Positions 29,720 through 45,746 of a stretch of DNA of 64,000 nt are shown piece by piece. Origin of the DNA: Mesorhizobium sp. M9A.F.Ca.ET.002.03.1.2 (GTDB taxonomy: Bacteria > Pseudomonadota > Alphaproteobacteria > Rhizobiales > Rhizobiaceae). The notes under the pieces were generated by a model. That model was not told the DNA's origin, did no database searches, and worked only from the letters and a program-made list of their open reading frames with translations. The first letter of the stretch is position 1. Each line of letters begins with the position of its first letter. The stretch covers positions 3,093,001 through 3,157,000 of the forward strand of contig NZ_CP034443.1 in NCBI RefSeq assembly GCF_003952365.1, given 5' to 3'. The position numbers were made by a program, and so were the translations under genes.

Positions 29720-29932
29720 GCCTCGGCCGACAGGGCGAAGCGCGACACGGCGGCTCCATGATGCCAACGGGCCATGGAACGTCCGTTCGGACGTTATTTG
29801 CCTGCCGGTCGCCAAACGCAGCGCTGACTTTCCTCCATTCGCGTCGAGATTGGATCGGGCGTTGCTTTGATCGCAACGAGCTGCGTGCCACCGTAGGGAC
29901 TGATCCAAGCCGAGGCAGAAGGAGGTTTGACC

Positions 29933-30952
29933 ATGGCCAGGATTGTGCCCGTACTCGATCTCAGCCGTCTCGAACAGGGGGCGTCGGAGCGCCGGACCTT
30001 TCTGTTCGACCTGCGTACCGCTGCCCGCGATGTCGGGTTCTTTTATCTCAGCGGTCATGGAATTTCGGCTGTGGAGATCGACGAGGTGCTCGACGCCTCG
30101 CGCCGGTTCTTTGCCTTGCCGGAAGCCGACAAGCTGGCCATCGAAATGGTCAAGTCCCCGCAATTCCGCGGCTACACGCGCACCGGTGGCGAACTGACCA
30201 AGGGCAAGGCCGACTGGCGCGAACAACTCGACATCGGCGTCGAGCGCCAACCCATTCCGCAGGGTTCGGATATTCCTGCCTGGACGCGGCTGCAAGGGCC
30301 GAACCAATGGCCTTCGACGCTGTCGGAACTCAAGCCGGCGCTGCTGGCATGGCAGACCACGGCGACGGCGGTGGCGATCCGCCTGCTGAAGGCTTTTGCG
30401 TTGTCGCTCGACCAGGCCGAGGACGCTTTCGATCCGATCTATGGCGGCGAGCCTAACCATCGCATGAAGATCGTGCGCTATCCCGGGCGTGAGGCAACCG
30501 GCGACGGCCAGGGCGTCGGCGCGCACAAGGATGGTGGCTTCCTGACGCTTCTGCTTCAGGACGAGAACAAGGGGCTGCAGGTCGAATATGACGGAAGCTG
30601 GGTGGATGTCGATCCGATCCCCGGAACGCTGGTGGTCAATATCGGCGAGCTGCTCGAACTGGCATCGAACGGTTATCTCAGGGCGACCGTCCATCGTGTC
30701 GTGACGCCGCCGGCCGGCATCGAGCGGATTTCCGTTCCCTTTTTCTTCAGCGCCCGGCTCGATGCGACGATCCCGTTGCTCGCCCTGCCTGAAGAACTGG
30801 CGGCCGAAGCGCGCGGACCGGCCAGCGATCCGGACAACCCGCTGTTTCGCGACGTCGGGACCAATGTGTTGAAAAGTCGCCTGCGCTCCCATCCCGACGT
30901 GGCGCGCCGGCACTATCCCGATCTCCTCGAAACCGGGGCGTCGCCGGTCTGA
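29933..30952 (+). CDS. Isopenicillin N synthase family Fe(II)/2-oxoglutarate oxygenase
   Basis: A 339-residue oxygenase. The N-terminal DIOX_N region is VPVLDLSRLEQGASERRTF, then VGFFYLSGHGIS. The iron triad is HKD in GVGAHKDGGFLTLLLQDEN and His in LRATVHRVVTP, with the 2-oxoglutarate-binding Arg-Ser in ERISVPFFFS. Family members oxidise small molecules in catabolism or secondary metabolism. The ATG at 29933 has AAGGAGG at the proper distance. It converges with the large SARP-type regulator gene. Confidence 0.9.
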   Translation: MARIVPVLDLSRLEQGASERRTFLFDLRTAARDVGFFYLSGHGISAVEIDEVLDASRRFFALPEADKLAIEMVKSPQFRGYTRTGGELTKGKADWREQLDIGVERQPIPQGSDIPAWTRLQGPNQWPSTLSELKPALLAWQTTATAVAIRLLKAFALSLDQAEDAFDPIYGGEPNHRMKIVRYPGREATGDGQGVGAHKDGGFLTLLLQDENKGLQVEYDGSWVDVDPIPGTLVVNIGELLELASNGYLRATVHRVVTPPAGIERISVPFFFSARLDATIPLLALPEELAAEARGPASDPDNPLFRDVGTNVLKSRLRSHPDVARRHYPDLLETGASPV

Positions 30953-31033: not shown

Positions 31034-34000
31034 TCAGCGTGTGTGCCGTACGAGATAGGGTTCGACCAGGGCACGTATTTCCGCAGCGGGTGCTGCCTCT
31101 CCGGCGGCATGCAGCGTTCGTTCGTAGCGCGTATAATCCTCCACCGCGCCTTCGAAGTCACGGCGCGACAGCTGCCCCTTGATCAGCGCCTTGCAGATCG
31201 GTCCGGCATCCGGATAGAGGTCCAACGTCCGAAGATAGACGGAACGCGCCTCACGGGCGTTGTTTGCCGTCTCCAGCCGCCGGCCGATCCGCAAGCCGAG
31301 ATCGATCAGATCGCGACGCACCCTCTCGGCGGCGGCGAGCGACCAGAAGCTGGCTCGCTCATGCAGAAACAACGGACCGGGAAAGGCGAGGAAGAGGGCT
31401 TCCGCCTCCGGGTGCAGTCCGGCCGCCTCGCCATTGGCTGTCGCAACGGCCTTGAGCAGCGCGTCCCAGTCTGCCAGGTCGACCCAGACCTTGTCCGACG
31501 CGAGGCGAAGCTTGCCTTCGCGCTGCACGATAAGGTCGGTCCGCCCCAGCAGCTTGCGCAGCCGATGCAGCGCCTGCTCGCACGCCGCCCGTGCCTGATC
31601 GCCGTCAAGGTCGGGCCACAGCCAGTCCTGAAGGGTCTCCAGCGAGCACGTGTTGTCCTTCGAGATCGCCAGCACCCGCAGGATGTCGAGAGCCTTCGTC
31701 GGTGGCTTGGCGCCGAGATGGAGAGGGTTTCCATCGAGTTCGAGCCGAAAGCCTCCAAGAACGTGGACCTTGAGCGGCCACGGCCAGGTCGCGGGCCGCC
31801 GTTGCGGCACGTCCAGCCGGCGTTCCCCGATCAGCGACCGGCAAAGCTTGGGCTCGATGCCGCGCTCGAGCGCATCACCAAGCAGTTCGGCGAGCAACTC
31901 CGGAACGTTGAGGAGCACCATTGGCCAGCTGATGTCGCGGAGCGCCTGCAGGAAGACCTTCAGCCGATCGCCATAGTGGAGATCCTGCTTCCACAGGCTC
32001 TCCAGGGCGGCCGCTGCCAGAATGCATATCTCGGTCCGTTTGCGAGCACCGCCATCCAGCCGCGGCAGCAGGTCGCTGAGAAGCGCGGCGGCTTCGCGCG
32101 GCTTCCTGTCCGCCAGCAGCACCTGGAACTTCGTGAGGTAGTGCGCCCAGCGCTCGACCATCGGCTCGTTGGCGGCCTCGCTCGCTGCCATGAAGCGCCC
32201 GCAATCCTGGTAGGCGGCCGTGAAATCGCCTTGCCTGGCATGAAGCGTGGCATAGCAATTGGCGACAATGGCGACCTGTGTGCTGAAACGGCTGTCGGCG
32301 ATCTCGGCCAGCCGCTCGACCACTTGGTGGAATTCGGCAAAATCGTTGCGGAACTTCATCTGCATTTGCAAATGATACAGGCCACCGAACTCCACGCCCT
32401 TGAGCGACTCGCGCTCACCGATGGCGATCGCCTCCCGCAACGCCGCTTCGGCCGAAGGGAAGGGAAAACCCCGTCTCCTATAGGGAAAATAACGGCCGCT
32501 CTTGGCGCCAAACTCGACCAGCCACATGCCGAGGACCCAAGGCAGCACCTCCTTGTCGCTCAAATCCTCGACAACGCTGTCGACGGCCTTGGTGAACAGA
32601 TCGGCACGCATGATCGATACCGAATGTTCGATCAGCGATTCGCTGGCAAGCAGCCGCAATCCGCTCGGATCGCGCTCGGGGTTCCTGGTCAGCCGCTCCA
32701 GGAGTTCGGCTTCCAGTGCTTGTCCGGCCGGGCTGTTGCCATAGTAGTCGTCGCCGAAATTCAGCGCCCGCACCATGCCAATGCGCACCAGCATCGCTTC
32801 CTCGGAAGGCATTTCCGGCAGGCCACGCTCGATGATTTCGAACGCCCGGCGGGTCCAGGTCGAAAGACCTTCGTAGGTTCGCCAACTGTCCGTCTTCACC
32901 AATACCGCGCGCGACACAGTAAGGCTAAGCCCGCGCAGATCGTCGGCCTCGCCAAAGGCATGCCATGCTCTCGACAGCCAGTGCTCCGCCGCGGCGTCGT
33001 CCGGCATGTGGGCCACGCCCAGCCAATAGAAATGCCAGCCGCTCATGACCGCTTCCGGCAACCGGCCACACCATTCGATGAAAGTCGCCCGGTGGCCTTG
33101 CGCCAGCACGGCCTCGGCACGATTCAGGATCAGCCCGCTCGCTTGGCCCCAGTCCTCGGCCTGCAAGGCGAGGTGTATGGCTTCATCCCGCCGGCCGGCC
33201 TCCACCAGGATCTTCGCCGCCTTTCGCCTGAGCGATTGCTGCTCTTCCCTGGTAACTTGCTGCGCGAAGCGCCGGTCAAGAAAGTCTCGCAAAAGGTCGT
33301 GCAGGCAGAAGACGTCGCGGCTGTTTTCCGAGCGCGTGACCAGCAGCTGTCGCCTGTAGAGCCTGTCGAGCAGCTTTCTCGCTTCGCCCGACCCGATCAT
33401 CACGTCGGCCAGTTCGGCGCTGATTTCGGGCAGCAGATTGAGTTTCAGCAGCATGTCCTGGTCGGCGGCGGGCAGGGAAAGGAAGAAATGACGGCCGAGG
33501 ACGTCCGACAGCGCATTCTGGCCGCCGGGCGCTGTCCCGTTCGTGTCGTCAGGTCCGACCGCCGAGCCGTGATCGGCGAGGAGAACCAGCCCGATCGCCC
33601 AGCCGCGTGCCGCTTCGACATGGACTGAAGCGGCGCCGTTGTTAGAACGCAGCTTGACGAAATCGCGTGCTTCCGATGTCGAGAATTCGAGCGCCGACCT
33701 GTCGATAACGGCCATCTGGCCCTTGAGAACGAGGTCACCCAGTTCCTCCTGGGGCAGCGTGCGCGAGACGCAGACACAGCGGATCGTGTCAGGGAGCTCG
33801 CGGAACATCACCGAAAGCACCGTCCGGAATTCGTGCGTGTCGGCGTCGTGCAGATCGTCGAGGACCAGGATGGTGCCGGCCTTCAGCCGCGCGAAATAGG
33901 CCCTGAAGAAGCGCCTGGCGAATTCCTTCGGCTGCTCGGCATATTCGACGCCGAACACCGGCATGTCGCCGGCCGAGGCGAGCGACTGCGCCAGATACTG

Positions 34001-34321
34001 AAAGAAGCGCGCAATGTCCTGGTCGCCCTCGTCGATACGGAACCACACATGCGGCGCCTCTGTGCTTTCGAGATAATCGATGACCGCGGTCGTCTTGCCG
34101 TAGCCGGCCGGCGCCGCCACCCAGCATATGGTCGATCGCGACATCCGATCGATCGCCGCGAGAACACGGCTTCGCCTCAATATCCTGGCGCTGCGCGGCG
34201 CTGCCAGCTTGGCGATCCGGCCCGTGCCCGGGAGCGGGCGTCCCGCATCGGCTTTGATAGTGTCTAGGGGGTCATGGGGGCTCCCGCTCGACCAATCACC
34301 ATGCGCCGGTCGTGCCGCCAT
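31034..34321 (-). CDS. Giant STAND ATPase regulator with C-terminal SARP/BTAD output
   Basis: A 1095-residue protein. The N-terminal MalT-like nucleotide-binding module has P-loop VAAPAGYGKTTAVIDYL (68-84) and Walker B TILVLDDLHDADTHEF. A long helical-repeat middle (about 380-840) follows. The C-terminus has an OmpR-like winged helix (VHVLGGFRLELDGNPLHLGA, DILRVLAIS, LETLQDWLWPDLDGDQA) and a bacterial transcriptional activation domain (RRLETANNAREARSVYLRTL, ELYPDAG-like repeats). SARP outputs usually bind directly repeated heptamers. Copy 2 of the iterated element lies upstream on the same strand, suggesting autoregulation (inference). Confidence 0.88.
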   Translation of the reverse strand: MAARPAHGDWSSGSPHDPLDTIKADAGRPLPGTGRIAKLAAPRSARILRRSRVLAAIDRMSRSTICWVAAPAGYGKTTAVIDYLESTEAPHVWFRIDEGDQDIARFFQYLAQSLASAGDMPVFGVEYAEQPKEFARRFFRAYFARLKAGTILVLDDLHDADTHEFRTVLSVMFRELPDTIRCVCVSRTLPQEELGDLVLKGQMAVIDRSALEFSTSEARDFVKLRSNNGAASVHVEAARGWAIGLVLLADHGSAVGPDDTNGTAPGGQNALSDVLGRHFFLSLPAADQDMLLKLNLLPEISAELADVMIGSGEARKLLDRLYRRQLLVTRSENSRDVFCLHDLLRDFLDRRFAQQVTREEQQSLRRKAAKILVEAGRRDEAIHLALQAEDWGQASGLILNRAEAVLAQGHRATFIEWCGRLPEAVMSGWHFYWLGVAHMPDDAAAEHWLSRAWHAFGEADDLRGLSLTVSRAVLVKTDSWRTYEGLSTWTRRAFEIIERGLPEMPSEEAMLVRIGMVRALNFGDDYYGNSPAGQALEAELLERLTRNPERDPSGLRLLASESLIEHSVSIMRADLFTKAVDSVVEDLSDKEVLPWVLGMWLVEFGAKSGRYFPYRRRGFPFPSAEAALREAIAIGERESLKGVEFGGLYHLQMQMKFRNDFAEFHQVVERLAEIADSRFSTQVAIVANCYATLHARQGDFTAAYQDCGRFMAASEAANEPMVERWAHYLTKFQVLLADRKPREAAALLSDLLPRLDGGARKRTEICILAAAALESLWKQDLHYGDRLKVFLQALRDISWPMVLLNVPELLAELLGDALERGIEPKLCRSLIGERRLDVPQRRPATWPWPLKVHVLGGFRLELDGNPLHLGAKPPTKALDILRVLAISKDNTCSLETLQDWLWPDLDGDQARAACEQALHRLRKLLGRTDLIVQREGKLRLASDKVWVDLADWDALLKAVATANGEAAGLHPEAEALFLAFPGPLFLHERASFWSLAAAERVRRDLIDLGLRIGRRLETANNAREARSVYLRTLDLYPDAGPICKALIKGQLSRRDFEGAVEDYTRYERTLHAAGEAAPAAEIRALVEPYLVRHTR

Positions 34322-34392: not shown

Positions 34393-34546
34393 AAGCGGCA
34401 ATGGCTCCTTCCGGGGGGTGCGGACCTCGATGTTTGCGCAACCGGAAATCAGGAAGCAGACGAATTGCGGAGGGGAATGGGCGCCCGGTGAATCCCGCAC
34501 TCCGTTTTCGACCGCCCGCTCCAAATGCGGTAGAATATCTGATCAT
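34361..34546 (-). pseudogene. Truncated duplicate of the small exported-protein gene
   Basis: The ribosome site and first eight codons (MIRYSTAF) match the gene at 26982. From the ninth codon the sequence is unrelated (GAGGRKRSAGFTGRP and a basic, Pro-rich tail) with no signal-peptide core. The remaining 61-residue frame is probably not a functional protein. It shows that the upstream block and start codon were copied, then cut. Confidence 0.6.
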
Positions 34547-34736: not shown

Positions 34737-34773
34737 GCTGCCCAATCCTTTGGCGATGCGATGATTTTCGCGT

Positions 34774-34838: not shown

Positions 34839-34854
34839 TGGCATGCTCCTTGCT
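34839..34854 (+). promoter_or_regulatory. Sigma-54 (RpoN) promoter of the guanidine operon
   Basis: TGGCATG-CTCC-TTGCT matches the sigma-54 consensus TGGCACG-N4-TTGCW at all but one position. The invariant GG (34840-34841) and GC (34852-34853) are exactly ten bases apart. Transcription should start about 12 bases after the GC, near 34865, directly at the 5' edge of the riboswitch. No competing sigma-70 promoter is evident. Confidence 0.85.
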
Positions 34855-34865
34855 TCGTTGATGGC

Positions 34866-34985
34866 GTGCAGAGCGTCTAGGGTTCCGGCCGCGACAAAGC
34901 GGTGCTGGTCCAAGAGATGCGACCGCCAGGGATGCACTGAGGCATCCGGCGGAACACGGCGGGCCAAAATCCCGGGAGAACCCTG
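34866..34985 (+). ncRNA. Guanidine-I (ykkC) riboswitch aptamer
   Basis: The three conserved blocks of the ykkC subtype 1 aptamer occur in order. They are CTAGGGTTCCG (34877-34887), GCTGGTCCAAGAG (34904-34916), and ACACGGCGGG, CCAAAA, TCCCGGGAGA (34954-34979). Variable stems lie between (GCCGCGACAAAGCGGT; GGATGCACTGAGGCATCC). This matches the known guanidine-sensing class, which turns on guanidine exporters, carboxylases or hydrolases. It leads the transporter/ureohydrolase operon. Recognition is from memory of the consensus; a covariance-model search was not possible. Confidence 0.93.
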
Positions 34986-35015
34986 CACGGGTTTGCTGGC
35001 GCGAACCTCTCCCGG
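34972..35015 (+). promoter_or_regulatory. Possible riboswitch expression platform
   Basis: CCGGGAGA (34972-34979), the conserved 3' strand of the aptamer, is complementary to TCTCCCGG (35008-35015). An inner AACCC/GGGTT hairpin stacks between them. The long stem competes with the ligand-bound fold. There is no T-run, so control may be Rho-dependent or by structure before the ribosome site at about 35070. Confidence 0.5.
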
Positions 35016-35080
35016 ATGCGCGCTCCGTAAACCCCAACATGAAATCCGGACGCAATTCGGATCGCGAACAGGGGTACGCA

Positions 35081-36145
35081 ATGCTTCGCAAGCTGGCCGC
35101 AATCATCCTAGCCGCATCACTCAGCCTTCCCATGATTTCCGCCGCCGAAGCGGCGCCCAAGAAAGACTTCAAGATATGCTGGTCGATCTATGTCGGCTGG
35201 ATGCCGTGGGGCTATCTTGCCGACAGCGGCATCATGAAGAAATGGGCCGACAAATACGGCATCAACGTCGAGATCACCCGCATCAACGACTATGTCGAAA
35301 GCATCAACCAGTATACGGCCGGCGGCTTCGACGGCTGTTCGATGACCAACATGGATGCGCTGTCGATCCCCGCAGGCGGCGGCGTCGACACCACCGCCGT
35401 GATCATCGGCGACTTCTCCAACGGCAATGATGCCGTGATCCTCAAGGACAAGGCCGCGCTCGCCGACATCGCCGGCCAGAAGGTCAACCTCGTCGAGCTC
35501 TCCGTCTCGCATTACCTGCTGGCGCGGGCGCTGGACACGGTCAAGCTCGCCGAGAAGGACATCACCGTCGTCAACACGTCCGACGCCGACATGGTCGCCG
35601 CTTATGGCACCGGCGACGTCACCTCGGTCGTCACCTGGAATCCGCTCGTTTCCGAGATCGTCGCCATGCCGGGTGCCCACAAGGTGTTCGATTCCTCGCA
35701 GATTCCCGGCGAGATCATCGACATGATGGTCGTCAACACCGAGACGCTGAAGGACAATCCGGCATTGGGCAAGGCGCTTGTCGGCGCGTGGTACGAAGCG
35801 ATGGACCTGATGATTTCGGACACGCCGGAAGGCAAGGCAGCCAAGGAGGAGATGGCCAAGGCGTCCGGAACGGACCTCGCCGGCTTCGACGCGCAGCTCG
35901 CCTCGACAGCAATGTTCTTCGACCCCGCCAAGGCGGTCGAGTTCACCATCGGCGCCGAACTGCCGAAGACGATGGACCTCGTTCGCAACTTCCTGTTCAG
36001 CCACGGCATCCTCGGCACCAATGCGACGAGCGTCGACGTGGTCGGCATGAGCTTTCCCGACGGATCCACGCTGGGCGACGCCAACAACGTCAAGCTGCGT
36101 TTCGATCCAGCCTTCATGGCCGAGGCTGCAACCGCAACGCCCTGA
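35081..36145 (+). CDS. ABC transporter substrate-binding protein, NitT/TauT type, likely guanidine-specific
   Basis: A 354-residue periplasmic protein with a signal peptide (MLRKLAAIILAASLSLPMIS, then AAEA/APKK). The fold is of the TauA/SsuA class: FKICWSIYVGWMPWGYLADS opening, TAGGFDGCSMTNMDALSIPA in the hinge, then AYGTGDVTSVVTWNPLVSEI. This subgroup is often annotated as a putative urea transporter protein. The ATG at 35081 has AGGGG upstream; an earlier ATG at 35039 lacks a site. It follows the guanidine-I riboswitch directly, so guanidine is the best substrate guess. Confidence 0.88.
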   Translation: MLRKLAAIILAASLSLPMISAAEAAPKKDFKICWSIYVGWMPWGYLADSGIMKKWADKYGINVEITRINDYVESINQYTAGGFDGCSMTNMDALSIPAGGGVDTTAVIIGDFSNGNDAVILKDKAALADIAGQKVNLVELSVSHYLLARALDTVKLAEKDITVVNTSDADMVAAYGTGDVTSVVTWNPLVSEIVAMPGAHKVFDSSQIPGEIIDMMVVNTETLKDNPALGKALVGAWYEAMDLMISDTPEGKAAKEEMAKASGTDLAGFDAQLASTAMFFDPAKAVEFTIGAELPKTMDLVRNFLFSHGILGTNATSVDVVGMSFPDGSTLGDANNVKLRFDPAFMAEAATATP

Positions 36146-36175
36146 CACGACATGCTGGCCAGGGGAACGAGCGCC

Positions 36176-37060
36176 ATGAATGCAGACCCCGAGGCGGGCG
36201 GGGAGGGCACGCGCCCGTCCCCGCCAAGGCCGAGGGCGCGCCTTCGCATGATCAATGCGAAGGTCTCGCGCGGCGGCGCTTTGTTTCTCGGCGGCTTGCC
36301 GTTCTTGTTCGTGGCGATCGCCTATCTGATCGCCTCGGCGCAAAGATTGGCGGTCAATCCCAGCGACAAGCTGCTGCCTTCGCCGGTACAGATGTGGTCG
36401 GCCTTTCTCGACCTTGCCACGGTGCCGGACAAGCGCTCCGGCGACCTCATCCTGTGGGTCGACACCTATGCCAGTCTCCTCAGGCTGTTCGCGGGCGTGG
36501 GCGTGGCCACGCTCGCAGCACTTTCGCTTGGCATCGCCATCGGCTTTATTCCGCGGGTGCGGGCCTTCCTGCTGCCCTTCGTCACCGTCGTCTGCGTCAT
36601 CCCACCATTGGCGCTGCTGCCGATCCTGTTCATCGCGCTTGGCCTTGGCGAAACGGCCAAGATCACGCTGATCGCCATCGGCGTCGCGCCGGTCATGGTG
36701 CGCGACATCGCCAACCGGGTGATGGAGCTGCCGCCCGAACTGGTGGCCAAGGCGCAGACGCTTGGCGGCAACAGCTGGTCCATGATTTTGCGGCTGGTGC
36801 TGCCGCAAGTCATGCCGCGCCTCATCACCTGCGTGCGGCTGGCGCTCGGGCCTGCCTGGCTTTTCCTGATCGCTGCCGAAGCCATCGCCTCGACCGAGGG
36901 GCTGGGTTACCGCATCTTCCTCGTCCGCCGTTATTTGTCGATGGACGTCATCCTGCCCTATGTCGCCTGGATCACGCTGCTTGCCGTCATCACCGACTGG
37001 CTGCTGGTGCGGCTGTCCCAAGCGATGTCCCCCTGGGCGCATCCGGTGGAGGCAAGATGA
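36176..37060 (+). CDS. ABC transporter permease, NitT/TauT type
   Basis: A 294-residue inner-membrane protein with six spans. The EAA-type loop is PPELVAKAQTLGGNSWSMIL, with RLVLPQVMPRL, and the conserved QMWSAFLDL lies before the first pore span. The ATG at 36176 has GGGGA 11 bases upstream and is preferred over 36152. It overlaps the ATPase gene by four bases (ATGA), a mark of translational coupling. It forms the import channel for the binding protein encoded just upstream. Confidence 0.88.
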   Translation: MNADPEAGGEGTRPSPPRPRARLRMINAKVSRGGALFLGGLPFLFVAIAYLIASAQRLAVNPSDKLLPSPVQMWSAFLDLATVPDKRSGDLILWVDTYASLLRLFAGVGVATLAALSLGIAIGFIPRVRAFLLPFVTVVCVIPPLALLPILFIALGLGETAKITLIAIGVAPVMVRDIANRVMELPPELVAKAQTLGGNSWSMILRLVLPQVMPRLITCVRLALGPAWLFLIAAEAIASTEGLGYRIFLVRRYLSMDVILPYVAWITLLAVITDWLLVRLSQAMSPWAHPVEAR

Positions 37061-37878
37061 GCCGCATCGTCGTTCACGGGCTGGAAAAGAGCTACGGCGA
37101 TGCCCGTGTGCTCGAGCGGGTCAACGTCATCGCCGAGGCCGGCGAATTCCTGTCGCTGGTCGGCGCCAGCGGCTGCGGAAAATCGACGTTCCTGCGCATC
37201 CTGCTCGGTCAGGAGCAGCAGAGCGGCGGCGTGGTCGTTGTCGGCGACGGCCCGATCGTGCCCGAACCGACGCCGCAGCGCGGCATCGTCTTCCAGCGCT
37301 ATTCGGTGTTTCCGCATCTGACCGCCATTCAGAACCTGCTGCTGGTCGAAGACTTTCGCTCAGGCGGGCCTTTTGGCCGCGTCTTCGGCGCCAGGCGCAG
37401 AAACGCCAGGCAAGAGGCCGAAGCCATGCTGGAGCGGGTTGGCCTTGCCCACGCGCGCGACCTCTATCCCGCCTCGCTCTCAGGCGGCATGCAGCAGCGG
37501 CTGGCGATTGCGCAGACCTTGCTCGGCCGTCCGCAGATACTGCTTCTCGACGAGCCGTTCGGTGCGCTCGATCCCGGCATCCGCGTCGAGATGCACGACC
37601 TGCTGGTCGAGCTCTGGACCGAGCACGGTATGACGGTGGTGATGGTCACCCACGACATCGGCGAGGCCTTCAAGCTCGGCACCCGCGTGCTGGTCTTCGA
37701 CAAGGTGCGCCACGACCCCCAGTTCCCGTCCGCCTATGGCGCGACGATCACCTACGATCTGAAGCTCGACCGCAAGAACCGGGCTTCTTCCCAGGATGTG
37801 GCCAAGGTGGCCGCGATGGTCGGGACGGCCCGGCCGGATAGCGCGATCGCGACGACGGCGTCGCAACGGAGAGCTTGA
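37057..37878 (+). CDS. ABC transporter ATP-binding protein, NitT/TauT type
   Basis: A 273-residue ATPase. Walker A is GASGCGKSTFLRILLG (about 38-53), the Q-loop GIVFQRYSVFPHLTAIQNLL, signature LSGGMQQRLAIAQTLL, Walker B ILLLDEPFGALD and switch VTHDIGEA. A 40-residue tail (KLDRKNRASSQDVAKV onward) is longer than usual. It drives import through the adjoining permease. Its stop is immediately followed by the ATG of the ureohydrolase gene. Confidence 0.9.
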   Translation: MSRIVVHGLEKSYGDARVLERVNVIAEAGEFLSLVGASGCGKSTFLRILLGQEQQSGGVVVVGDGPIVPEPTPQRGIVFQRYSVFPHLTAIQNLLLVEDFRSGGPFGRVFGARRRNARQEAEAMLERVGLAHARDLYPASLSGGMQQRLAIAQTLLGRPQILLLDEPFGALDPGIRVEMHDLLVELWTEHGMTVVMVTHDIGEAFKLGTRVLVFDKVRHDPQFPSAYGATITYDLKLDRKNRASSQDVAKVAAMVGTARPDSAIATTASQRRA

Positions 37879-39087
37879 ATGTCCAGAAGTATCCCAGAAC
37901 GCAGCCACCGCAGGGCGGGGCTCGTCGCCCGGGAGGTCAGGGAACGCTTCCACCACCCCGATTTCGACGCCCGCGGCACGCAGGGCTGGAAGTCGATCGA
38001 GGCCGAGGGGAAGCTGCCGGAAAGCGGCTGGCGCAAGGAGCAGCAATGGGCGCTCGACATGGGCCTGCCGGGATCGGAGTCGATCGTCGACAAGTCGATC
38101 CCGACATTCGCGCGCGGCGAACTGCCGCATTTCGCAGGCATCAACACCTTTCTCAAGGCGCCCTATGTCGAGAATGTCCGCGATGTCGGCAAATATGATG
38201 CTGCCGTCATCGGCATCCCATTCGACAGCGGCACCACCTACCGGCCGGGAACCCGCTTCGGCCCGCAAGGCATCCGTCGCATCTCGGCGCTCTACACGCC
38301 GTACAACTACGAGCTCGGCGTCGACCTGCGCGAGCAGATGACGCTGTGCGACGCCGGCGACGTCTTCACCATTCCCGCCAATCTCGAAAAGAGTTTCGAC
38401 CAGATCACCAAGGGCGTCAGCCATGTCGCCTCGTCGGGCGCGCTGCCGATCATGCTGGGCGGTGATCATTCTATCGGCTTTCCCTGCGTGCGTGGCATCG
38501 CCGACGTGACCTCGAAGCGCATCGGCATCATCCATTTCGACCGCCATATCGACATCCAGGAAAAGGATCTCGACGAGCGCATGCACACCACGCCCTGGTA
38601 TTGGGCGACCAACCTGCCGAATGTCTCGGCCACCAATCTCGTGCAGCTCGGCATCGGCGGCTGGCAGGTTCCCCGCTACGGCGTCGCCGAGGCGAGGAAA
38701 CGCGGCACCAATGTGCTCACCATTGCCGACATCGAGGAGATGGGTCTCGAGAAGGCGGCGGAAATCGCGCTCGAACTCGCGTGGAAAGACACCGACGCCG
38801 TCTACATCTCCTTCGACGTCGACAGCCTCGATTGCGGTTTCGTGCCCGGCACGGGCTGGCCGGAGCCGGGCGGCTTCCTGCCGCGCGAGGCGCTCAAACT
38901 TCTAGGGCTGGTGACGGCGCCCGGCATTTGCGGACTGGAGGTGGTCGAGGTCTCGCCGCCCTACGACACGTCGGACATCACGGCGCTGTTCGGCGTGCGC
39001 GTCGTCGTCGAGGCGCTCGGCTCGATGGTCGCCCACGGCAATCTCGGCAAGCATAAATCCATCATCGACAAACCGGTGAGTTTTTGA
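37879..39087 (+). CDS. gdmH: Ureohydrolase-family guanidine hydrolase (GdmH-like)
   Basis: A 402-residue metal-dependent hydrolase of the arginase/agmatinase fold. The metal ligands are H197 (LGGDHSIG), D221, H223 and D225 (HFDRHID) and D313, D315 (SFDVDSLD). Its N-terminus is about 80 residues longer than that of agmatinases. It carries DERMHTTPWYWATN and LVQLGIGGWQVPRYG, a region I associate with guanidine hydrolases of the Synechocystis GdmH type, which use nickel and release urea and ammonia. The guanidine-I riboswitch, importer and nickel-handling neighbours agree. It could still act on another guanidino compound. Confidence 0.85.
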   Translation: MSRSIPERSHRRAGLVAREVRERFHHPDFDARGTQGWKSIEAEGKLPESGWRKEQQWALDMGLPGSESIVDKSIPTFARGELPHFAGINTFLKAPYVENVRDVGKYDAAVIGIPFDSGTTYRPGTRFGPQGIRRISALYTPYNYELGVDLREQMTLCDAGDVFTIPANLEKSFDQITKGVSHVASSGALPIMLGGDHSIGFPCVRGIADVTSKRIGIIHFDRHIDIQEKDLDERMHTTPWYWATNLPNVSATNLVQLGIGGWQVPRYGVAEARKRGTNVLTIADIEEMGLEKAAEIALELAWKDTDAVYISFDVDSLDCGFVPGTGWPEPGGFLPREALKLLGLVTAPGICGLEVVEVSPPYDTSDITALFGVRVVVEALGSMVAHGNLGKHKSIIDKPVSF

Positions 39088-39089
39088 CA

Positions 39090-39614
39090 ATGCACGACGA
39101 TCACCACCACAGTCATGGCCATGGCCATCATCATCACGGGCCGGACGGTCATCACGACCATCATCCTCTCGGCCATAACGGACCCGCGGGCAAGCCGCTG
39201 CAATGGCAGACGCCGCACCGGCCGGACCAGGCTCATGAGCCGCCGGTTGATCCAGCATCGGTCGACCTCGATCTTGTTGAAACCGCCTTCCTCGAGGGCT
39301 TTGCGCGGGCGCCGGACCCATCCAGCTTTCTGCGCCTGGCCGGCATACCCTTTGTCGGCGAGATGGCGGACGGCGTGCGGCTTCATCTGCTTCGCGTCGA
39401 GACCGATGACCTGGTCGACGTCGGCGCCGTCATGCCGCTCGTCGGCGGTACCGGCGTCGCCTATCACCCGTTGCCGGCGCGCCTGACGTCGCATCGCCGC
39501 CGCCTCGCATTCATCTATCACGATGGCACTGAGCAAAAGCCGCTCGGCTTCGCCGCGGCGCGCGCCCTTGCGGACCGTTCCGCCGCTTCGCAATTCGCCG
39601 TTCCCGGGCACTGA
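39090..39614 (+). CDS. Histidine-rich protein, probable nickel carrier
   Basis: A 174-residue cytoplasmic protein. The first 45 residues are dominated by His and Asp (runs such as HHHSHGHGHHHHGPDGHHD), as in metal-storage tails of UreE, HypB or SlyD. The rest (SVDLDLVETAFLEGFARAPD, then LRLAGIPFVGEMADGVRLHL and LVDVGAVMPLVGG) matches no family I know. The start two bases after the hydrolase stop implies coupled translation. Between a nickel-type hydrolase and a HupE permease, the likely job is delivering nickel to the hydrolase. This is inference. Confidence 0.8.
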   Translation: MHDDHHHSHGHGHHHHGPDGHHDHHPLGHNGPAGKPLQWQTPHRPDQAHEPPVDPASVDLDLVETAFLEGFARAPDPSSFLRLAGIPFVGEMADGVRLHLLRVETDDLVDVGAVMPLVGGTGVAYHPLPARLTSHRRRLAFIYHDGTEQKPLGFAAARALADRSAASQFAVPGH

Positions 39615-39657
39615 AACCAGACGCCGAACCCGTCACTCTCATCGAACAGGTACAACC

Positions 39658-40242
39658 ATGAAAACATTTGCAAGACTTGGCGCCCTTTCAGCTCTCGCCA
39701 CGCTCACACCGTCGCTGGCGTTTGCCCATGGCGGCGGCCCTCACGTCCATGGCTTTTTCACCGGTCTCGAACATCCGCTCTTCGGCATGGATCATCTGCT
39801 CGCCATGGTCGCGGTCGGCATGATTGGTGCCCGCGCCGGCGGGCGCAGTATCATTCTTGTGCCGCTGTTCTTTGTCTCGGCCATGGTCGCCGGGGCCTTG
39901 CTCGGCATGGCCGGCATCGGCCTGCCTTCCCTTGAAACCGGCATCGCGCTGTCGCTTGTGGTCTTCGGCGCCATGGTCGGCCTTGCCAGGCCTTTGCCGC
40001 TGGCCGCCGCCGCGACAGTGACGGCCCTGTTCGGTCTCTTCCATGGCAACGCCCATGGCCTCGAGATTCCCGAGAGCGCCAGCGGCGTTGCTTACGCCGC
40101 AGGTTTCATGCTCGGCACATCGATGCTGCACGCGATCGGCGTGGTGTCCGTTCTCAAGCTGGCCCGCTGGCCGTTGCCGGTCCGCACCGCAGGTGTCGCC
40201 ACCTCGCTGGTTGGAATGGTGATGGCCGCACAGGCCTTCTGA
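39658..40242 (+). CDS. HupE/UreJ family nickel permease
   Basis: A 194-residue membrane protein. It has a cleavable leader (MKTFARLGALSALATLTPSL, then AFA) and mature HGGGPHVHGFFTGLEHPLFG. The family metal motif HPLFGMDHLLAMVAVG lies at the first span, a second His motif LFHGNAHGLEIPESA further on, and there are about six spans in all. HupE/UreJ proteins move nickel or cobalt for hydrogenase or urease. Here the partner is the guanidine hydrolase. It ends the operon. The 184 bases after it hold no clear gene. Confidence 0.92.
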   Translation: MKTFARLGALSALATLTPSLAFAHGGGPHVHGFFTGLEHPLFGMDHLLAMVAVGMIGARAGGRSIILVPLFFVSAMVAGALLGMAGIGLPSLETGIALSLVVFGAMVGLARPLPLAAAATVTALFGLFHGNAHGLEIPESASGVAYAAGFMLGTSMLHAIGVVSVLKLARWPLPVRTAGVATSLVGMVMAAQAF

Positions 40243-40426: not shown

Positions 40427-41140
40427 TCAGAATTCGAGGGCCTGCCTGAGTGCCGGGCCACTCCTGACGCGCAGATCGAGGTCGGCCTCGATATGGTCGA
40501 TATGGTGCAGCATCAGCGCGCTAGCCCGTTCTGCGTTGCCGCTCTCGAGCGCTTCCAGGATATTCATATGCTCGCTATGGCCGCAGCTCGAGACACCGGA
40601 GCGGCCGTAAAGCGCGATCACCAGTGACGAACGCGCCACCAGTTCCTCCATGAAGCGCTGGAGGATGACGTTTCCGGCAACCGACGCCAGAAGCAGGTGA
40701 AAGTCGCCCGAAGCCTTGATTTCCGACCGTCTTGCGCTCGGTCCGCGTTCGGCAATGAAGCGGCCTTCTTCGTCGAGCTGCGCTTTGAAGGCGACGACAT
40801 GCGCCGGCGTCATGCGCCCGGCCGCGGCGATCGCGATGCCGGGCTCGATGAGCCGGCGCGAAGCAAAGACCTGGCGCGCTTCGTCCGGCGACGGATTGGC
40901 GACGAAGGCGCCGCGGTTGCGCTCGGTCCGCACCAATCCCTCGAAGGAAAGCATCTGCAGCGCCGCGCGCGCCACGGTGCGACTGACATCGAACAAAGTG
41001 CCGACCTCGCCTTCGGACAGCTTGGTTCCGGGCGCCAGCCGGCGATCGACGATCGCGTCGCGCAATTGGTCGCGGATCGCCTGGGCACGATCCTCATTGG
41101 CGCTATCGACAGCAGGGAAAGTCTGGTCGGCAATATTCAT
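40427..41140 (-). CDS. GntR family regulator, FCD domain
   Basis: A 237-residue repressor. The winged helix-turn-helix (about 18-80) reads AIRDQLRDAIVDRRLAPGTK, LSEGEVGTLFDVSRTVARAA, then RNRGAFVANPS. The FCD ligand domain holds metal-type His residues (DFHLLLASVAGN, GHSEHMNILEALESGN, LMLHHIDHIEADL). Divergent from the Pot-type transporter operon, it probably represses it until a substrate-derived acid binds. Confidence 0.88.
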   Translation of the reverse strand: MNIADQTFPAVDSANEDRAQAIRDQLRDAIVDRRLAPGTKLSEGEVGTLFDVSRTVARAALQMLSFEGLVRTERNRGAFVANPSPDEARQVFASRRLIEPGIAIAAAGRMTPAHVVAFKAQLDEEGRFIAERGPSARRSEIKASGDFHLLLASVAGNVILQRFMEELVARSSLVIALYGRSGVSSCGHSEHMNILEALESGNAERASALMLHHIDHIEADLDLRVRSGPALRQALEF

Positions 41141-41264
41141 GATGATGATCCCTGGCGCCTTTCTACCCTGAATCGGGTCGCTTACACGAGTGCCAAAATG
41201 AATACGATGTGAGAAAATATTGCATACGATTTTTGCGAAGATCGCCGACTATTTGCCTATAATT

Positions 41265-41277
41265 TGTGCATCGCACA
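41265..41277. promoter_or_regulatory. Candidate operator TGTGC-ATC-GCACA
   Basis: A perfect 5-bp inverted repeat lies between the GntR gene and the transporter operon. A second one (CGGCAG-G-CTGCCG) is at 41290-41302, and a repeated ATACGAT motif sits near 41198 and 41224. One of these is likely to be the GntR site; I cannot tell which. Confidence 0.35.
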
Positions 41278-41402
41278 TGCGTGCCGTTTCGGCAGGCTGC
41301 CGGATGCAATTCAAATTTCCCAGAGGATTCAATCGCTTGAGGCTGAAGTAGGGCAATTGGCATGCATGATGCTTTGCTTAAGTTGACTTAGAGAGGAAGC
41401 CG

Positions 41403-42491
41403 ATGTCCAAAGCCGCCGAAATCGACATCGTGTCCGTTTCGAAAGTCTATGGCGCAACGACTGCCGTCGAAGACATCAGCTTGAAAATCCCCGCGGGAAC
41501 CTATTGCTGCCTGCTCGGGCCGTCCGGTTGTGGCAAGACCTCGACGCTGCGCATGATCGCCGGGCACGAGAGCATATCGAGCGGCGACGTGCGTCTGGGC
41601 AACACAGTCGTCACCGACCTGCCGCCTGCCAGGCGTGGCACCGCCATGATGTTCCAGTCCTACGCGCTGTTTCCGCATCTCGACCTGATGGACAATGTCG
41701 CGTTCAGCCTCAAGATGAAGGGTGTCGGCAAGGAGGAGCGCCGCGCCAAGGCGCTCGACATGCTGAAGCTGATGCAGATGGAAGCCTATGCCGGTCGCCG
41801 CCCGGCGCAGCTTTCGGGCGGACAGCAGCAGCGCGTCGCTCTGGCCCGCGCGCTGATCACCGACCCCGAAGCGCTGTTGCTGGATGAGCCGCTGTCAGCA
41901 CTCGATCCGTTCCTGAAGATCCGCATGCGGGCGGAGCTGAAGAAGCTGCAGACGTCGCTCGGCATCACCTTCGTCCACGTCACCCACAGTCAGGAAGAGG
42001 CGATGGCGCTGGCCGACCTGATCGTGGTGATGAACGATGGCCGCATCGAGCAGGCGGCACATCCGCGTGACGTGTTCGAGCGGCCAGCCACCGCATTCGT
42101 CGCCCGTTTCATGGGCGACCACAATGTCGTCTCCGGCCGGGTGACCGGCAGCCGCGACGGCATGGTTGTTTTCGATGTTCCGGGCGGCGTCTCGCTTGCG
42201 GCCAGCGGGCAAGGCAGGGCGGTCGGCGAGCCGATCGACATCGCCATTCGCACCGACCATGTGCGGATCGGCGAAGCGCCGGCCGCGGGGCTGGGCTTCA
42301 CCGGCATCGCCTCCAACGTCGAATACCGTGGCTCGACCGTGAAGCTGTCGGTCAACGGCGCCGGCATCGAGGATTTCACGGTGATCGTCGACGACACCAG
42401 CTTCTTCGCCAAGCCGGTTGCCGTCGGCGACGCGGTGCCGATCGCCTGGGACCCCGAGGACGCCATCGTCCTTGGCCGTCTCGATTCCTGA
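41403..42491 (+). CDS. Spermidine/putrescine-type ABC transporter ATP-binding protein
   Basis: A 362-residue PotA-like ATPase. Walker A GPSGCGKTSTLRMIAGHE lies near residue 38, the Q-loop MMFQSYALFPHLDLMDNVAF, signature LSGGQQQRVALARALI, Walker B LLLDEPLSALDPFLK and switch VTHSQEEAM. A TOBE domain (IRTDHVRIGEAPAAGLGFTG) fills the C-terminus. It leads a six-gene operon on the plus strand. The substrate need not be a polyamine. Confidence 0.9.
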   Translation: MSKAAEIDIVSVSKVYGATTAVEDISLKIPAGTYCCLLGPSGCGKTSTLRMIAGHESISSGDVRLGNTVVTDLPPARRGTAMMFQSYALFPHLDLMDNVAFSLKMKGVGKEERRAKALDMLKLMQMEAYAGRRPAQLSGGQQQRVALARALITDPEALLLDEPLSALDPFLKIRMRAELKKLQTSLGITFVHVTHSQEEAMALADLIVVMNDGRIEQAAHPRDVFERPATAFVARFMGDHNVVSGRVTGSRDGMVVFDVPGGVSLAASGQGRAVGEPIDIAIRTDHVRIGEAPAAGLGFTGIASNVEYRGSTVKLSVNGAGIEDFTVIVDDTSFFAKPVAVGDAVPIAWDPEDAIVLGRLDS

Positions 42492-42523
42492 ACCCGCATA
42501 ACCAACAAAACAGGGGAACTGAC

Positions 42524-43813
42524 ATGACCAACACCACCGACAAGAAGACAGGAATTTCCCGCCGCTCGCTGCTCAAGACAGGTGCTGCCGCCGTCGGTCT
42601 TGCCGCCGGCTCCGGCGTCATATCAGGCTTCCCGACGATCTGGGCGCAGTCCAACATCACATTGCGCCAGTTCGGTACCGGCGTGTCGAACCTCAACGCC
42701 ATTGCCGACAAGTGCAAGGCCGATCTCGGCATCACGCTGGAGATGACGGCGACCGATTCCGACGCCGCCGCCCAGCGCGCGGTGACCCAGCCGGACAGCT
42801 ACGACATCGCCGACATCGAATACTGGATCGCCAAGAAGGTCTATCCGTCTGGCGTGATGCAGCCGATGGATGTCAAGAAGCTGAAATATTACGACAAGAT
42901 CGTACCGCTTTTCATCACCGGCAAGCTGACGCCGGACAGCGTCATCGCTCAGGGCACCGCGCCGCATACGGTCGGCTTCGTCGAGGCGCAGGACGCCAAG
43001 ACCTTCGCCAAGGAACCGACCCAGTGGATGACGATGGTTCCGACCATTTACAATGCCGATACGCTCGGCATCCGCCCCGATCTTGTCGGCCGCGACATCA
43101 CCACCTGGGCCGACATCATGGATCCGGCCTTCAAGGGCAAGGCCGCCATCCTCAACATCCCGTCGATCGGCATCATGGATGCGGCGATGATCATGGAGGC
43201 CATGGGCAACATCAAATACGCCGACAAGGGCAACATGACCAAGGAGGAGATCGACAAGACGATCGACTTCCTCATCAAGGCCAAGCAGAACGGCCAGTTC
43301 CGTGCGTTCTGGAAATCGTTCGACGAGAGCGTCAACCTGATGGCATCGGGCGAAGTGGTCATCCAGTCGATGTGGTCGCCTGCGGTCGCGGCGGTGCGCT
43401 CCAAGGGTATTGCCTGCAAATACCAGCCGCTCAAGGAAGGCTATCGCGCATGGGGTGGCGGTCTCGGCCTCGCCTCGCATCTGTCGGGCGCGCAGCTGGA
43501 CGCCGCGTATGAATACATCAATTGGTACACGTCCGGCTGGGTCGGCGGCTACCTCAATCGTCAGGGCTATTATTCCGCCGCGATGGAGACAGCGAAAAAC
43601 TTCATGTCGGAAGACGAATGGGGTTTTTGGATCGAAGGCAAGCCGGCCAAGGGCGACATCTCGTCGCCGGAAGGCAAGGTCATGGAGAAGGCGGGCGCCG
43701 TGCGCGACGGCGGCTCGTTCGAAGACCGCATGGGCAAGGTCGCCTGCTGGAACTCGGTCATGGACGAGGACCGCTACATGGTGAGGCGCTGGAACGAGTT
43801 CATCGCGGCTTGA
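42524..43813 (+). CDS. PotD-type ABC substrate-binding protein with Tat signal
   Basis: A 429-residue binding protein exported folded. The twin-arginine leader is ISRRSLLKTGAAAVGLAAGS, with cleavage near WAQ/SNI. The mature fold is spermidine/putrescine-like: LRQFGTGVSNLNAIADKCK, DSYDIADIEYWIAKKV, FIEGKPAKGDISS. Segment GVMQPMDVKKLKYYDKIVPL is typical of this family's hinge. It is followed by a 195-base gap occupied by a palindromic repeat before the permeases. Confidence 0.9.
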   Translation: MTNTTDKKTGISRRSLLKTGAAAVGLAAGSGVISGFPTIWAQSNITLRQFGTGVSNLNAIADKCKADLGITLEMTATDSDAAAQRAVTQPDSYDIADIEYWIAKKVYPSGVMQPMDVKKLKYYDKIVPLFITGKLTPDSVIAQGTAPHTVGFVEAQDAKTFAKEPTQWMTMVPTIYNADTLGIRPDLVGRDITTWADIMDPAFKGKAAILNIPSIGIMDAAMIMEAMGNIKYADKGNMTKEEIDKTIDFLIKAKQNGQFRAFWKSFDESVNLMASGEVVIQSMWSPAVAAVRSKGIACKYQPLKEGYRAWGGGLGLASHLSGAQLDAAYEYINWYTSGWVGGYLNRQGYYSAAMETAKNFMSEDEWGFWIEGKPAKGDISSPEGKVMEKAGAVRDGGSFEDRMGKVACWNSVMDEDRYMVRRWNEFIAA

Positions 43814-43825
43814 TGCAGTCTCTTC

Positions 43826-43973
43826 CCCTTCTCCCCTTGTGGGAGAAGGTGGATTGGCGCGCAGCGCCAAGACGGTTGAGGGGTGCTGGACGGAGCGCTG
43901 TTGGTGCCAAGCTGGAACACCCCCTCATCCGACCGAGCTTCGCTCGGCCACCTTCTCCACAAGGGAGAAGGGA
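43826..43973. repeat. RIME-like rhizobial intergenic palindromic element
   Basis: CCCTTCTCCCCTTGTGGGAG at the left end and CTCCACAAGGGAGAAGGG at the right end are inverted. The interior contains GGCGCGCAGCGCC and CCCCTCATCCGACC. This composition is characteristic of mosaic repeats found many times in Rhizobium and Mesorhizobium genomes. Transcribed, it would fold into a long hairpin between the binding-protein and permease genes. Confidence 0.75.
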
Positions 43974-44008
43974 ACGCAGCCTCAGTCGCGTCGCCGACCT
44001 AGACCGAG

Positions 44009-44926
44009 ATGTTGATGACCGTAGCGCTCGAACAATCCACGCATGTTAAGTCCGCAAAGCCGGCCAGACGCAGCCCGTCCTTGGCCGGCCTCGCTCCCTG
44101 CCTCCAGGCGACACCTCTGGCCCTGATCCTCTGCGCATTCCTCCTGCTGCCGATCCTGATGATCGCCGTGGTCTCCTTCTGGGATTACGATTTCGCGGCG
44201 ATGTATCCGGATCTCCTGACCACCAACTACGCCGACACGCTTGGCTCCTGGGTCACCTGGAAAACCTATCTGAACACGATGAAATACGCTGCCATCGTCT
44301 GGGCGCTGACGCTGTTCATCGGTTTCTGGATCGCCTATTTCCTCGCCTTCCATATCAGGACCACGGCCATGCAGATGGTGCTGTTCCTGGTCTGCACCGT
44401 GCCGTTCCTGACCTCCAACATCATCCGCATGATCTCGTGGATTCCGGTGCTTGGCCGCAACGGCCTGGTCAATTCGACGCTGGTGCAGATGGGACTGATC
44501 CCAAGGCCGATCGAATGGCTGCTCTATTCCGAATTCGCCGTGGTGCTTGCCATGGTGCATCTCTACACGCTGTTCATGGTGACGCCGATCTTCAACACGC
44601 TGATGCGCATCGACAAGTCGCTGATCGAAGCCGCGCGTGATGCCGGCGCGTCCGGCTGGCAGGTCCTGTGGAACGTCATCGTCCCGCTTGCCAAGCCTGG
44701 CATGGCGATCGGAACCATCTTCGTCGTCACATTGGTGATGGCTGACTTTTCGACGGTGCAGGTGATGTCCGGCGGACAGAGCGCCTCCGTCGCGCTGATG
44801 ATGAAGAACCAGATGTCGCTGCTGCAATATCCCGCGGCGGCCGCCAACGCGGTCGTACTTCTGGTGCTGGTGCTGCTGATGGTCGCCGGCATTCTGCGCA
44901 TCGTCGACATCCGCAAGGAGCTGTGA
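44009..44926 (+). CDS. Spermidine/putrescine-type ABC permease, PotB-like
   Basis: A 305-residue membrane protein with six spans (first: LALILCAFLLLPILMIAVVS). Its EAA loop is SLIEAARDAGASGWQVLWNV, with IVPLAKPGM. It could also start at 44015 (second ATG); no strong ribosome site separates the options. The next permease gene starts one base after the stop. Confidence 0.88.
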   Translation: MLMTVALEQSTHVKSAKPARRSPSLAGLAPCLQATPLALILCAFLLLPILMIAVVSFWDYDFAAMYPDLLTTNYADTLGSWVTWKTYLNTMKYAAIVWALTLFIGFWIAYFLAFHIRTTAMQMVLFLVCTVPFLTSNIIRMISWIPVLGRNGLVNSTLVQMGLIPRPIEWLLYSEFAVVLAMVHLYTLFMVTPIFNTLMRIDKSLIEAARDAGASGWQVLWNVIVPLAKPGMAIGTIFVVTLVMADFSTVQVMSGGQSASVALMMKNQMSLLQYPAAAANAVVLLVLVLLMVAGILRIVDIRKEL

Positions 44927-44927
44927 C

Positions 44928-45746
44928 GTGAGCCACGAGAAGCGCACCCTCGAATTCTACGTGCTGGCGGCCTTCTTCGCCCTTTTCGTGCTGTTCCTCT
45001 ACGGCCCGCTTTCGGCGATCCTGATCCTCTCCTTCCAGGGTGAGAATGGCGGGCTGACCTTTCCGCTGAACGGCGTATCGCTGCACTGGTTCGCCAATCT
45101 GTTCGAGCGCCAGGCGGTCGGCGATTTCGGCGGCAGTTTCAAACGCTCCTTCATTCTTGGCCTGATGGTGATGGTGGTGACCGTTGTCGTGTCGCTGCTC
45201 GCCGGTCTTGCCTTCCGCCAAAAGTTTCGCGGCGCAACGGCGCTGTTCTATCTGGCCGTCGCCAGCCTGGTCGTGCCGTCGATCATCATCTCGCTCGGCA
45301 TCGGCGTCGTCTTTCAGCAGATCGGCTTTCGTCCCGCCTGGTACACGTCCGCCTTCGGCGCGCATCTGACGTGGACCTTGCCTTTCGGCGTGCTGATCAT
45401 GTTCGCGGTCTTCAACCGGTTCTCGCCGGCCTATGAGGAGGCCGCGCGGGATCTGGGCGCGACCTCGTGGCAGACCTTCGCGCATGTCGTCCTGCCGATG
45501 ATCGCGCCCAGCCTGATCGGTGTCGGCCTGTTCGGCTTCACGCTCTCCTATGACGAGTTCGCCCGCACGCTGATGACGTCGGGCACCTTCAACACGCTGC
45601 CGCTTGAAATCTACGGCATGACGACGAACGTGACGACGCCGGTGCTCTATGCGCTGGGCACTGTGACCACCGTGTTTTCCTTCCTGGTGATTTTGGCGAC
45701 GCTCGGTGCAATCGTCTATGTCGGGCGCCGCCGGGCGCGCGCATGA
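44928..45746 (+). CDS. Spermidine/putrescine-type ABC permease, PotC-like
   Basis: A 272-residue membrane protein starting with GTG at 44928. It has six spans and the EAA loop YEEAARDLGATSWQTFAHVV. FGFTLSYDEFARTLMTSGTF is the typical late PotC segment. Its stop overlaps the racemase start by four bases. Confidence 0.9.
   Translation: MSHEKRTLEFYVLAAFFALFVLFLYGPLSAILILSFQGENGGLTFPLNGVSLHWFANLFERQAVGDFGGSFKRSFILGLMVMVVTVVVSLLAGLAFRQKFRGATALFYLAVASLVVPSIIISLGIGVVFQQIGFRPAWYTSAFGAHLTWTLPFGVLIMFAVFNRFSPAYEEAARDLGATSWQTFAHVVLPMIAPSLIGVGLFGFTLSYDEFARTLMTSGTFNTLPLEIYGMTTNVTTPVLYALGTVTTVFSFLVILATLGAIVYVGRRRARA

Follow-up and report, generated by a model that had tools for sequence, protein, structure and literature searches.

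We describe here a predicted guanidine assimilation operon of Mesorhizobium sp. M9A.F.Ca.ET.002.03.1.2, located in a 64,000-nucleotide (nt) stretch of contig NZ_CP034443.1 (positions 3,093,001 to 3,157,000; hereafter the window). Our best reading of this Mesorhizobium-group locus, drawn from sequence, is a known route of guanidine assimilation equipped with a new dedicated nickel-loading factor, namely a histidine-rich protein that is encoded directly downstream of the guanidinase gene, gdmH, and for which we infer a chaperone role. For guanidinases of organisms without known chaperones, the histidine-rich family offers a single-gene candidate for the supply of nickel; in Alphaproteobacteria it adjoins the enzyme at each of the 94 distinct loci that we examined.

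Six same-strand genes stand behind a guanidine-I aptamer, the last ending at 40242. The features of the locus are as follows.

34739-34755, + strand: candidate NtrC-type enhancer site TGC-N11-GC, centred at about -118 relative to the predicted transcription start
34839-34854, + strand: sigma-54 -24/-12 element (11/12 consensus positions)
34866-34980, + strand: guanidine-I riboswitch aptamer (RF00442, 70.4 bits)
35008-35015, + strand: candidate anti-aptamer strand TCTCCCGG, an 8-nt complement of the aptamer 3' end at 34972-34979
35081-36145, + strand: substrate-binding protein (SBP) of an ATP-binding cassette (ABC) importer, guanidine being the predicted substrate (TIGR03427, 550 bits; PF13379)
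36152-37060, + strand: ABC importer permease (PF00528)
37057-37878, + strand: ABC importer ATPase (PF00005)
37879-39087, + strand: predicted GdmH-type guanidinase (guanidine hydrolase; 7esr/7oi1, 547 bits; 9fek, 524 bits)
39090-39614, + strand: histidine-rich protein, candidate dedicated GdmH nickel-loading factor (linkage to gdmH; confident model of the C-terminal domain)
39658-40242, + strand: HupE/UreJ nickel permease (PF04955, 175 bits)

A previous sequence-only reading had observed a riboswitch, a sigma-54-like box, an importer, GdmH, a histidine-rich open reading frame (ORF) and HupE, all of which were confirmed, the riboswitch, importer, GdmH and HupE by matches in Rfam, Pfam, NCBIfam and the PDB and the box by its conservation in relatives. 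It had also described these parts as consecutive and mostly overlapping: they are consecutive, but the genes mostly abut, the permease and ATPase genes being the sole overlapping pair (4 base pairs) and the remaining junctions being gaps of 6, 0, 2 and 43 nt. At the level of sequence, the predicted gene identities, the riboswitch, the conserved promoter box and the linkage are supported.

In the mechanism that we propose, the operon would import guanidine and hydrolyze it to urea and ammonia, with the genomic urease completing the breakdown. Transcription would be driven by the sigma-54 promoter, probably with NtrC as the activator under nitrogen shortage, and the aptamer would lie at the extreme 5' end of the RNA, so that full expression would require both low nitrogen and guanidine. 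HupE would supply nickel; the histidine-rich protein would bind Ni2+ by an N-terminal X-His motif and a His tract, and its conserved C-terminal domain would pass the metal to GdmH, in place of GhaA/GhaB or HypA/HypB. We consider this mechanism as a whole (import, hydrolysis, AND gate and nickel loading by the histidine-rich protein) to be likely.

Guanidine import and hydrolysis

The GdmH sequence has an arginase fold and is nearer to characterized guanidinases than to agmatinases. In a PDB sequence search, it matched the Synechocystis guanidinase chain (7esr/7oi1) with 547 bits and the Nitrospira inopinata guanidinase (9fek) with 524 bits, the next relative being a guanidinobutyrase with 174 bits; 230 of the 353 residues aligned with the Synechocystis enzyme are identical (65%). 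More specifically, the four residues of the N. inopinata enzyme to which a possible role in guanidine catalysis has been ascribed (T105, H222, W313 and E344; PMC11410670) are all found in GdmH, as T120, H236, W327 and E357, when the residue names of that paper are placed by hand on the GdmH/PDB alignment. That GdmH is a Ni-dependent guanidine hydrolase is a well-supported prediction. The SBP scored 550 bits (cut-off 334) against TIGR03427, a model named for the SBP of a "putative urea ABC transporter", and scored below cut-off with the SBP models for taurine and sulfonate; the substrate of the importer would be guanidine. HupE belongs to the HupE/UreJ family (PF04955, 175 bits versus a cut-off of 23). 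The genome of the window also encodes urease alpha, so that, together with GdmH, the route from guanidine to urea and ammonia is complete by homology, as well as an NtrC equivalog (694.9 bits) and two RpoN proteins; no urea/guanidine carboxylase was found over cut-off in this genome.

Guanidine import, its nickel-dependent hydrolysis and its use as a nitrogen source, as first proposed in the sequence-only reading, are predictions well supported by the family evidence and the sigma-54/riboswitch layout. Dimethylguanidine and metformin are the substrates of related Ni-ureohydrolases (PMC11399263), which would suit an operon that detoxifies or takes up a guanidino compound other than guanidine and does not serve guanidine nitrogen nutrition. 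Such an operon is highly improbable in our view, however, given an importer instead of an exporter, a guanidine-I aptamer, guanidinase-type residues, a sigma-54 box and a genomic urease.

The histidine-rich protein and its linkage to gdmH

Linkage was assessed from both sides. A genome search with the histidine-rich family gave 94 relatives, from which 80 loci were kept (the family-first set), and GdmH adjoined the histidine-rich protein in 80/80 of them (tblastn). A GdmH-first search (E ≤ 1e-100), made without using the histidine-rich family, detected GdmH in 7 of 398 genomes from the phylum and 11 of 385 from the class, two lists that share the window's own genome and one other; apart from the window's own locus, the family was found directly downstream of gdmH in 15/15 loci, the lowest score being 60 bits. 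Of these loci, two repeat known ones (L128 = L023 and L130 = L060) and 13 are new, and a Limimaricola plasmid supplies one further locus with gdmH and the histidine-rich gene. Altogether, the histidine-rich gene lies on the same strand as gdmH and starts -11 to 341 nt from its stop codon (median 8) in 96/96 loci (94 distinct; counts citing 96, 68 or 19 include two repeated loci), the distances being measured from starts picked with a preference for M-H or M-P-H. The counts combine tblastn with a clean profile, the rows given for this protein by an iterated profile, which had drifted onto frames over gdmH, having been dropped. The importer SBP and HupE were detected by profile in 56/80 and 51/80 of the family-first loci, respectively, some of which are cut by contig ends, and the importer and HupE in 14/15 and 1/15 of the GdmH-first loci; this linkage is looser, indicating that it is the histidine-rich protein that is tied more tightly to GdmH. 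No histidine-rich protein was found within 6 kb of gdmH in four actinobacterial plasmid loci.

The histidine-rich protein had no match in Pfam, NCBIfam or PHROG, and 63 members of its family gave a single weak DUF1236 match, in one member, and none in NCBIfam. Homologues numbered 321 by sequence search and 2313 by profile (7997 candidates scored). Among 139 listed family proteins, the deposited sequence starts with MH in 119 and with MPH in 2 (121/139 in all), and with MHD in 73. N-terminal Met is removed before Pro or Ala, so the MH and MPH types both leave a His at position 2. Over the 96 loci, for which start codons were chosen with a preference for M-H or M-P-H, 92 fit. A long His tract is present in many members, although its length varies widely across the family, and the members at L136, L137, L141 and L133, which have lost most of it, still start with MPHD. 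The better of two structure models, the second, has a mean predicted local distance difference test (pLDDT) score of 81.2; residues 61-160, in the C-terminal domain, reach block means of 91-97. The first model is weaker (mean 70.5). A PDB fold search with the two models returned no match at E ≤ 0.001, which does not establish that the fold is new.

Note that, in the assembly carrying L037, the reading frame of the histidine-rich ORF is broken close to its start, and that in one database protein (P0010, 279 residues, PF04955) the histidine-rich protein is joined to the beginning of HupE, a single case that may be a gene-call artefact. As for gene order, hupE stands upstream of gdmH in the Ancylobacter-type loci L050, L054, L058, L068, L069, L076 and L077, where a guanidine-I riboswitch lies closely 5' of gdmH, with neither importer nor sigma-54 box.

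HypA was found neither in the window's genome nor in 24 of the 33 tested genomes that carry GdmH and the histidine-rich protein, this one included. HypB was detected over cut-off in 7 of the 33, the window's own not among them; its best sub-cut-off HypB match, which lies beside the urease genes, is probably UreG. Nor was any gene for GhaA or GhaB, which we take to be HypA/HypB-like, found beside gdmH: the adjacent ORF had no such match, and the genome gave no HypA and no HypB over cut-off. GhaA/GhaB are the known nickel helpers of GdmH (PMC12930504), HypA/HypB serve metformin hydrolase (PMC11399263), and HypA binds Ni via an N-terminal MHE motif in which His2 is critical (PMC7055735). The histidine-rich protein, as its sequence and linkage suggest, may fill the same metallochaperone role.

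Two other roles of this protein have to be weighed. It might store nickel or buffer metals, or protect against Ni or Zn toxicity, without being required for nickel insertion, GdmH being loaded by mass action or by the urease chaperones UreE/UreG. The probable UreG adjoining urease in the window's genome and the wide variation of the His tract would fit such a role, as would the N. inopinata guanidinase, which is active although no chaperones were found in its genome and whose nickel loading is called unclear (PMC11410670). A plain buffer, however, need not keep a C-terminal domain modelled with such confidence, nor adjoin gdmH in 96/96 loci, and some members keep the domain after losing most of the His tract; we therefore hold a storage or buffering role to be unlikely. 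Alternatively, the protein could act as a partner of GdmH in assembly or regulation (a hexamer stabilizer or an inhibitor), unrelated to nickel, in line with the strict linkage and close spacing with gdmH and with the fact that the constant part is the domain and not the His tract. Such a partner would hardly call for an M-H or M-P-H start in 121/139 deposited proteins or for the many long His tracts, and the presence of hupE next door in 51/80 loci points to nickel; we regard this second role as quite improbable. Nickel loading of GdmH is the role that we retain for the histidine-rich protein.

The sigma-54 box and the guanidine-I aptamer

Compared with the -24/-12 consensus and standard spacing of sigma-54 promoters, the box TGGCATGCTCCTTGCT at 34839-34854 agrees with 11 of 12 consensus positions. 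A scan of the single window is not significant (30 matches at ≤2 mismatches versus 29.3 expected), and the case for the box comes from its conservation at the same place in relatives. It sits 27 or 28 nt 5' of the aptamer in 30/30 loci of the genus, with 10-12 of the 12 positions in each, these loci being drawn from the 34 genomes with an aptamer match and including the window's own. Of 67 distinct loci that carry the importer, 49 have a box (≥10/12) at an offset of 25-28 nt on the 5' side of the aptamer, versus 0 of 18 importer-less ones (50/68 and 0/19 when two repeated loci are included), the background rate being 22 of 209,254 positions. By genus, it is present in 31/31 Mesorhizobium rows (30 distinct) and in 19/37 loci of other genera, among which are Chthonobacter, Methylopila, Fulvimarina, Jiella, Filomicrobium and Geminicoccaceae. 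The count omits fourteen loci without a located aptamer, four of which carry the importer (L134, L137, L140 and L142); among these aptamer-less loci, L140 and L144-L146 were checked by pattern only, not by Rfam. L083 and L084, which come from the same genus, have a perfect 12/12 box at a diverged locus, with an SBP 67-68% identical and a different aptamer sequence. The box thus has the -24/-12 elements and standard spacing of a sigma-54 promoter and is conserved in relatives, Sinorhizobium/Ensifer excepted. A sigma-70 scan of the region gave 2 matches versus 1.3 in shuffles, including an upstream one at 34508-34536 (+ strand).

Sigma-54 transcription starts about 12 nt past the -12 GC, and the predicted start would fall at about 34865, adjoining the first base of the aptamer. 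Upstream, TGC-N11-GC, which has the dyad spacing of NtrC sites, is invariant in 13/13 Mesorhizobium upstream regions selected for alignment, the window included; NtrC may well act at the operon promoter. Box and aptamer together would predict an AND gate for nitrogen and guanidine. If this is true, the sigma-54 box set against the aptamer is a compact natural AND gate, for which the importer-less loci and those of Sinorhizobium/Ensifer (with another promoter), both without the box, offer natural comparisons.

The aptamer match (70.4 bits versus a gathering threshold of 63) identifies the guanidine-I family and is the only one found across the 6.4-Mb genome; within the genus, 34 of 146 genomes have a match over cut-off, which marks the trait as accessory. 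Positions 35008-35015 are perfectly complementary to the aptamer 3' end CCGGGAGA (34972-34979). At the same distance, a complement of at least 8 nt (8-9 nt) is found in 28/31 Mesorhizobium rows (one locus counted twice); it is absent in several distant loci examined. Per-locus shuffle rates are mostly 0.02-0.06, and the argument for an anti-aptamer strand lies in the conservation across loci, not in any one shuffle value. No U-run was found 3' of the anti-aptamer hairpin, so that switching could be translational, Rho-dependent or other; intrinsic terminators in the region are at chance level (5 found versus 5.2). In the minimum-energy fold of the leader, the Shine-Dalgarno sequence of the SBP gene seems to pair with an upstream CCCC.

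Several observations weigh against the mechanism proposed here. Regarding the gate, Mesorhizobium relatives account for 30 of the 49 distinct loci with the box, the frequency elsewhere being 19/37, and the importer-less loci are mostly Ancylobacter-like, so neither set of loci amounts to independent cases. The Sinorhizobium/Ensifer loci keep riboswitch and importer without a sigma-54 box, showing that nitrogen gating is not universal; by our reading of their sequence, they carry a TTTACT/TATACT-type promoter. Regarding nickel, the single GdmH-first locus of the 15 with HupE (L128) repeats L023, HypA is present in 9 of the 33 genomes with GdmH and the histidine-rich protein (two partial), UreE/UreG could be the nickel loaders of GdmH, and the N. 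inopinata guanidinase is active without a known chaperone (PMC11410670). Finally, some members (L081, L135 and L136) have a short His tract or almost none, and two of them, L081 and L135, lack His at mature position 2.

A further-reaching interpretation seems to us evenly poised between true and false. The histidine-rich protein would found a guanidinase-specific class of nickel metallochaperones, converged on the N-terminal X-His-acidic site of HypA with an unrelated C-terminal domain and replacing HypA/HypB for this enzyme throughout Alphaproteobacteria, and the operon would be read only at low nitrogen and in the presence of guanidine, via a sigma-54 start at the 5' end of the riboswitch.

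Neighbouring genes and known systems

A 2-oxoglutarate/Fe(II) oxygenase gene (29927-30952, + strand) was considered as a guanidine source and is not counted in the operon, a homologue (96% identity) being present in the upstream region of one of ten relatives (L148). Its best PDB match, 9ovh, is labelled ethylene/succinate-forming enzyme (197 bits), other entries so labelled scoring about 50-65 bits; enzymes of this type can make guanidine (PMC11410670). A MalT-like transcriptional regulator (1095 residues, 31034-34321, - strand) is divergent from the operon and recurs in 2 of the ten upstream regions; that of L154 ends just past this regulator and is uninformative for the oxygenase. Downstream, 40427-45746 encodes a GntR regulator and a spermidine/putrescine-type ABC importer (a GntR-potA-potD block), of which GntR, ATPase and SBP are conserved downstream of the operon in 11 of 26 loci (L002-L027). 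Near gdmH, RF02514 (5' ureB antisense small RNA) matched L134 (665-949) and L143 (11145-11434); the latter match overlies annotated urease genes and may reflect conserved urease coding sequence only.

The view that importer, hydrolase and nickel supply form an unusual combination is not supported, there being precedents in Synechocystis (PMC12186494) and in metformin operons (PMC11399263). Two elements look new, namely the histidine-rich protein and the conservation of a sigma-54 box at the aptamer; the pathway, the riboswitch and the importer are of a known kind. A literature search retrieved no recognizable description of the histidine-rich family or of a sigma-54 start at a guanidine riboswitch; it covered subscription journals sparsely and is not proof of absence.

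The gdmH operon of Synechocystis PCC 6803, with its guanidine-I riboswitch, ABC importer and Ni-delivery proteins (PMC12186494), shares with ours the enzyme family (65% identity), the riboswitch class, the ABC importer and the provision of nickel helpers (PMC12930504). Unlike it, the operon described here has no GhaA/GhaB-like gene and includes the histidine-rich protein, HupE and a sigma-54 box. The N. inopinata locus likewise combines a guanidine-I riboswitch with a guanidinase (9fek, 524 bits), but differs by an APC permease in place of the ABC importer and in that no nickel chaperones were found (PMC11410670). The histidine-rich protein resembles HypA in being small and in having His at position 2, with Asp as the next residue in 73/139 listed proteins (MHE in HypA, PMC7055735); the recognized likeness is N-terminal only, PF01155, the HypA domain, having matched neither this protein nor 62 relatives and no structural relation having been found. 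Guanidine carboxylase operons (Raoultella, Klebsiella) also place an ABC importer under a guanidine-I riboswitch (PMC12186494) but follow the ATP-dependent carboxylase route, for which the window's genome gave no match over cut-off. Finally, the metformin/dimethylguanidine hydrolase operons (hypA, hypB, two ureohydrolases, hupE) have in common with ours a Ni-dependent ureohydrolase followed by hupE, and differ by a heteromeric enzyme, other substrates and the use of HypA/HypB (PMC11399263).

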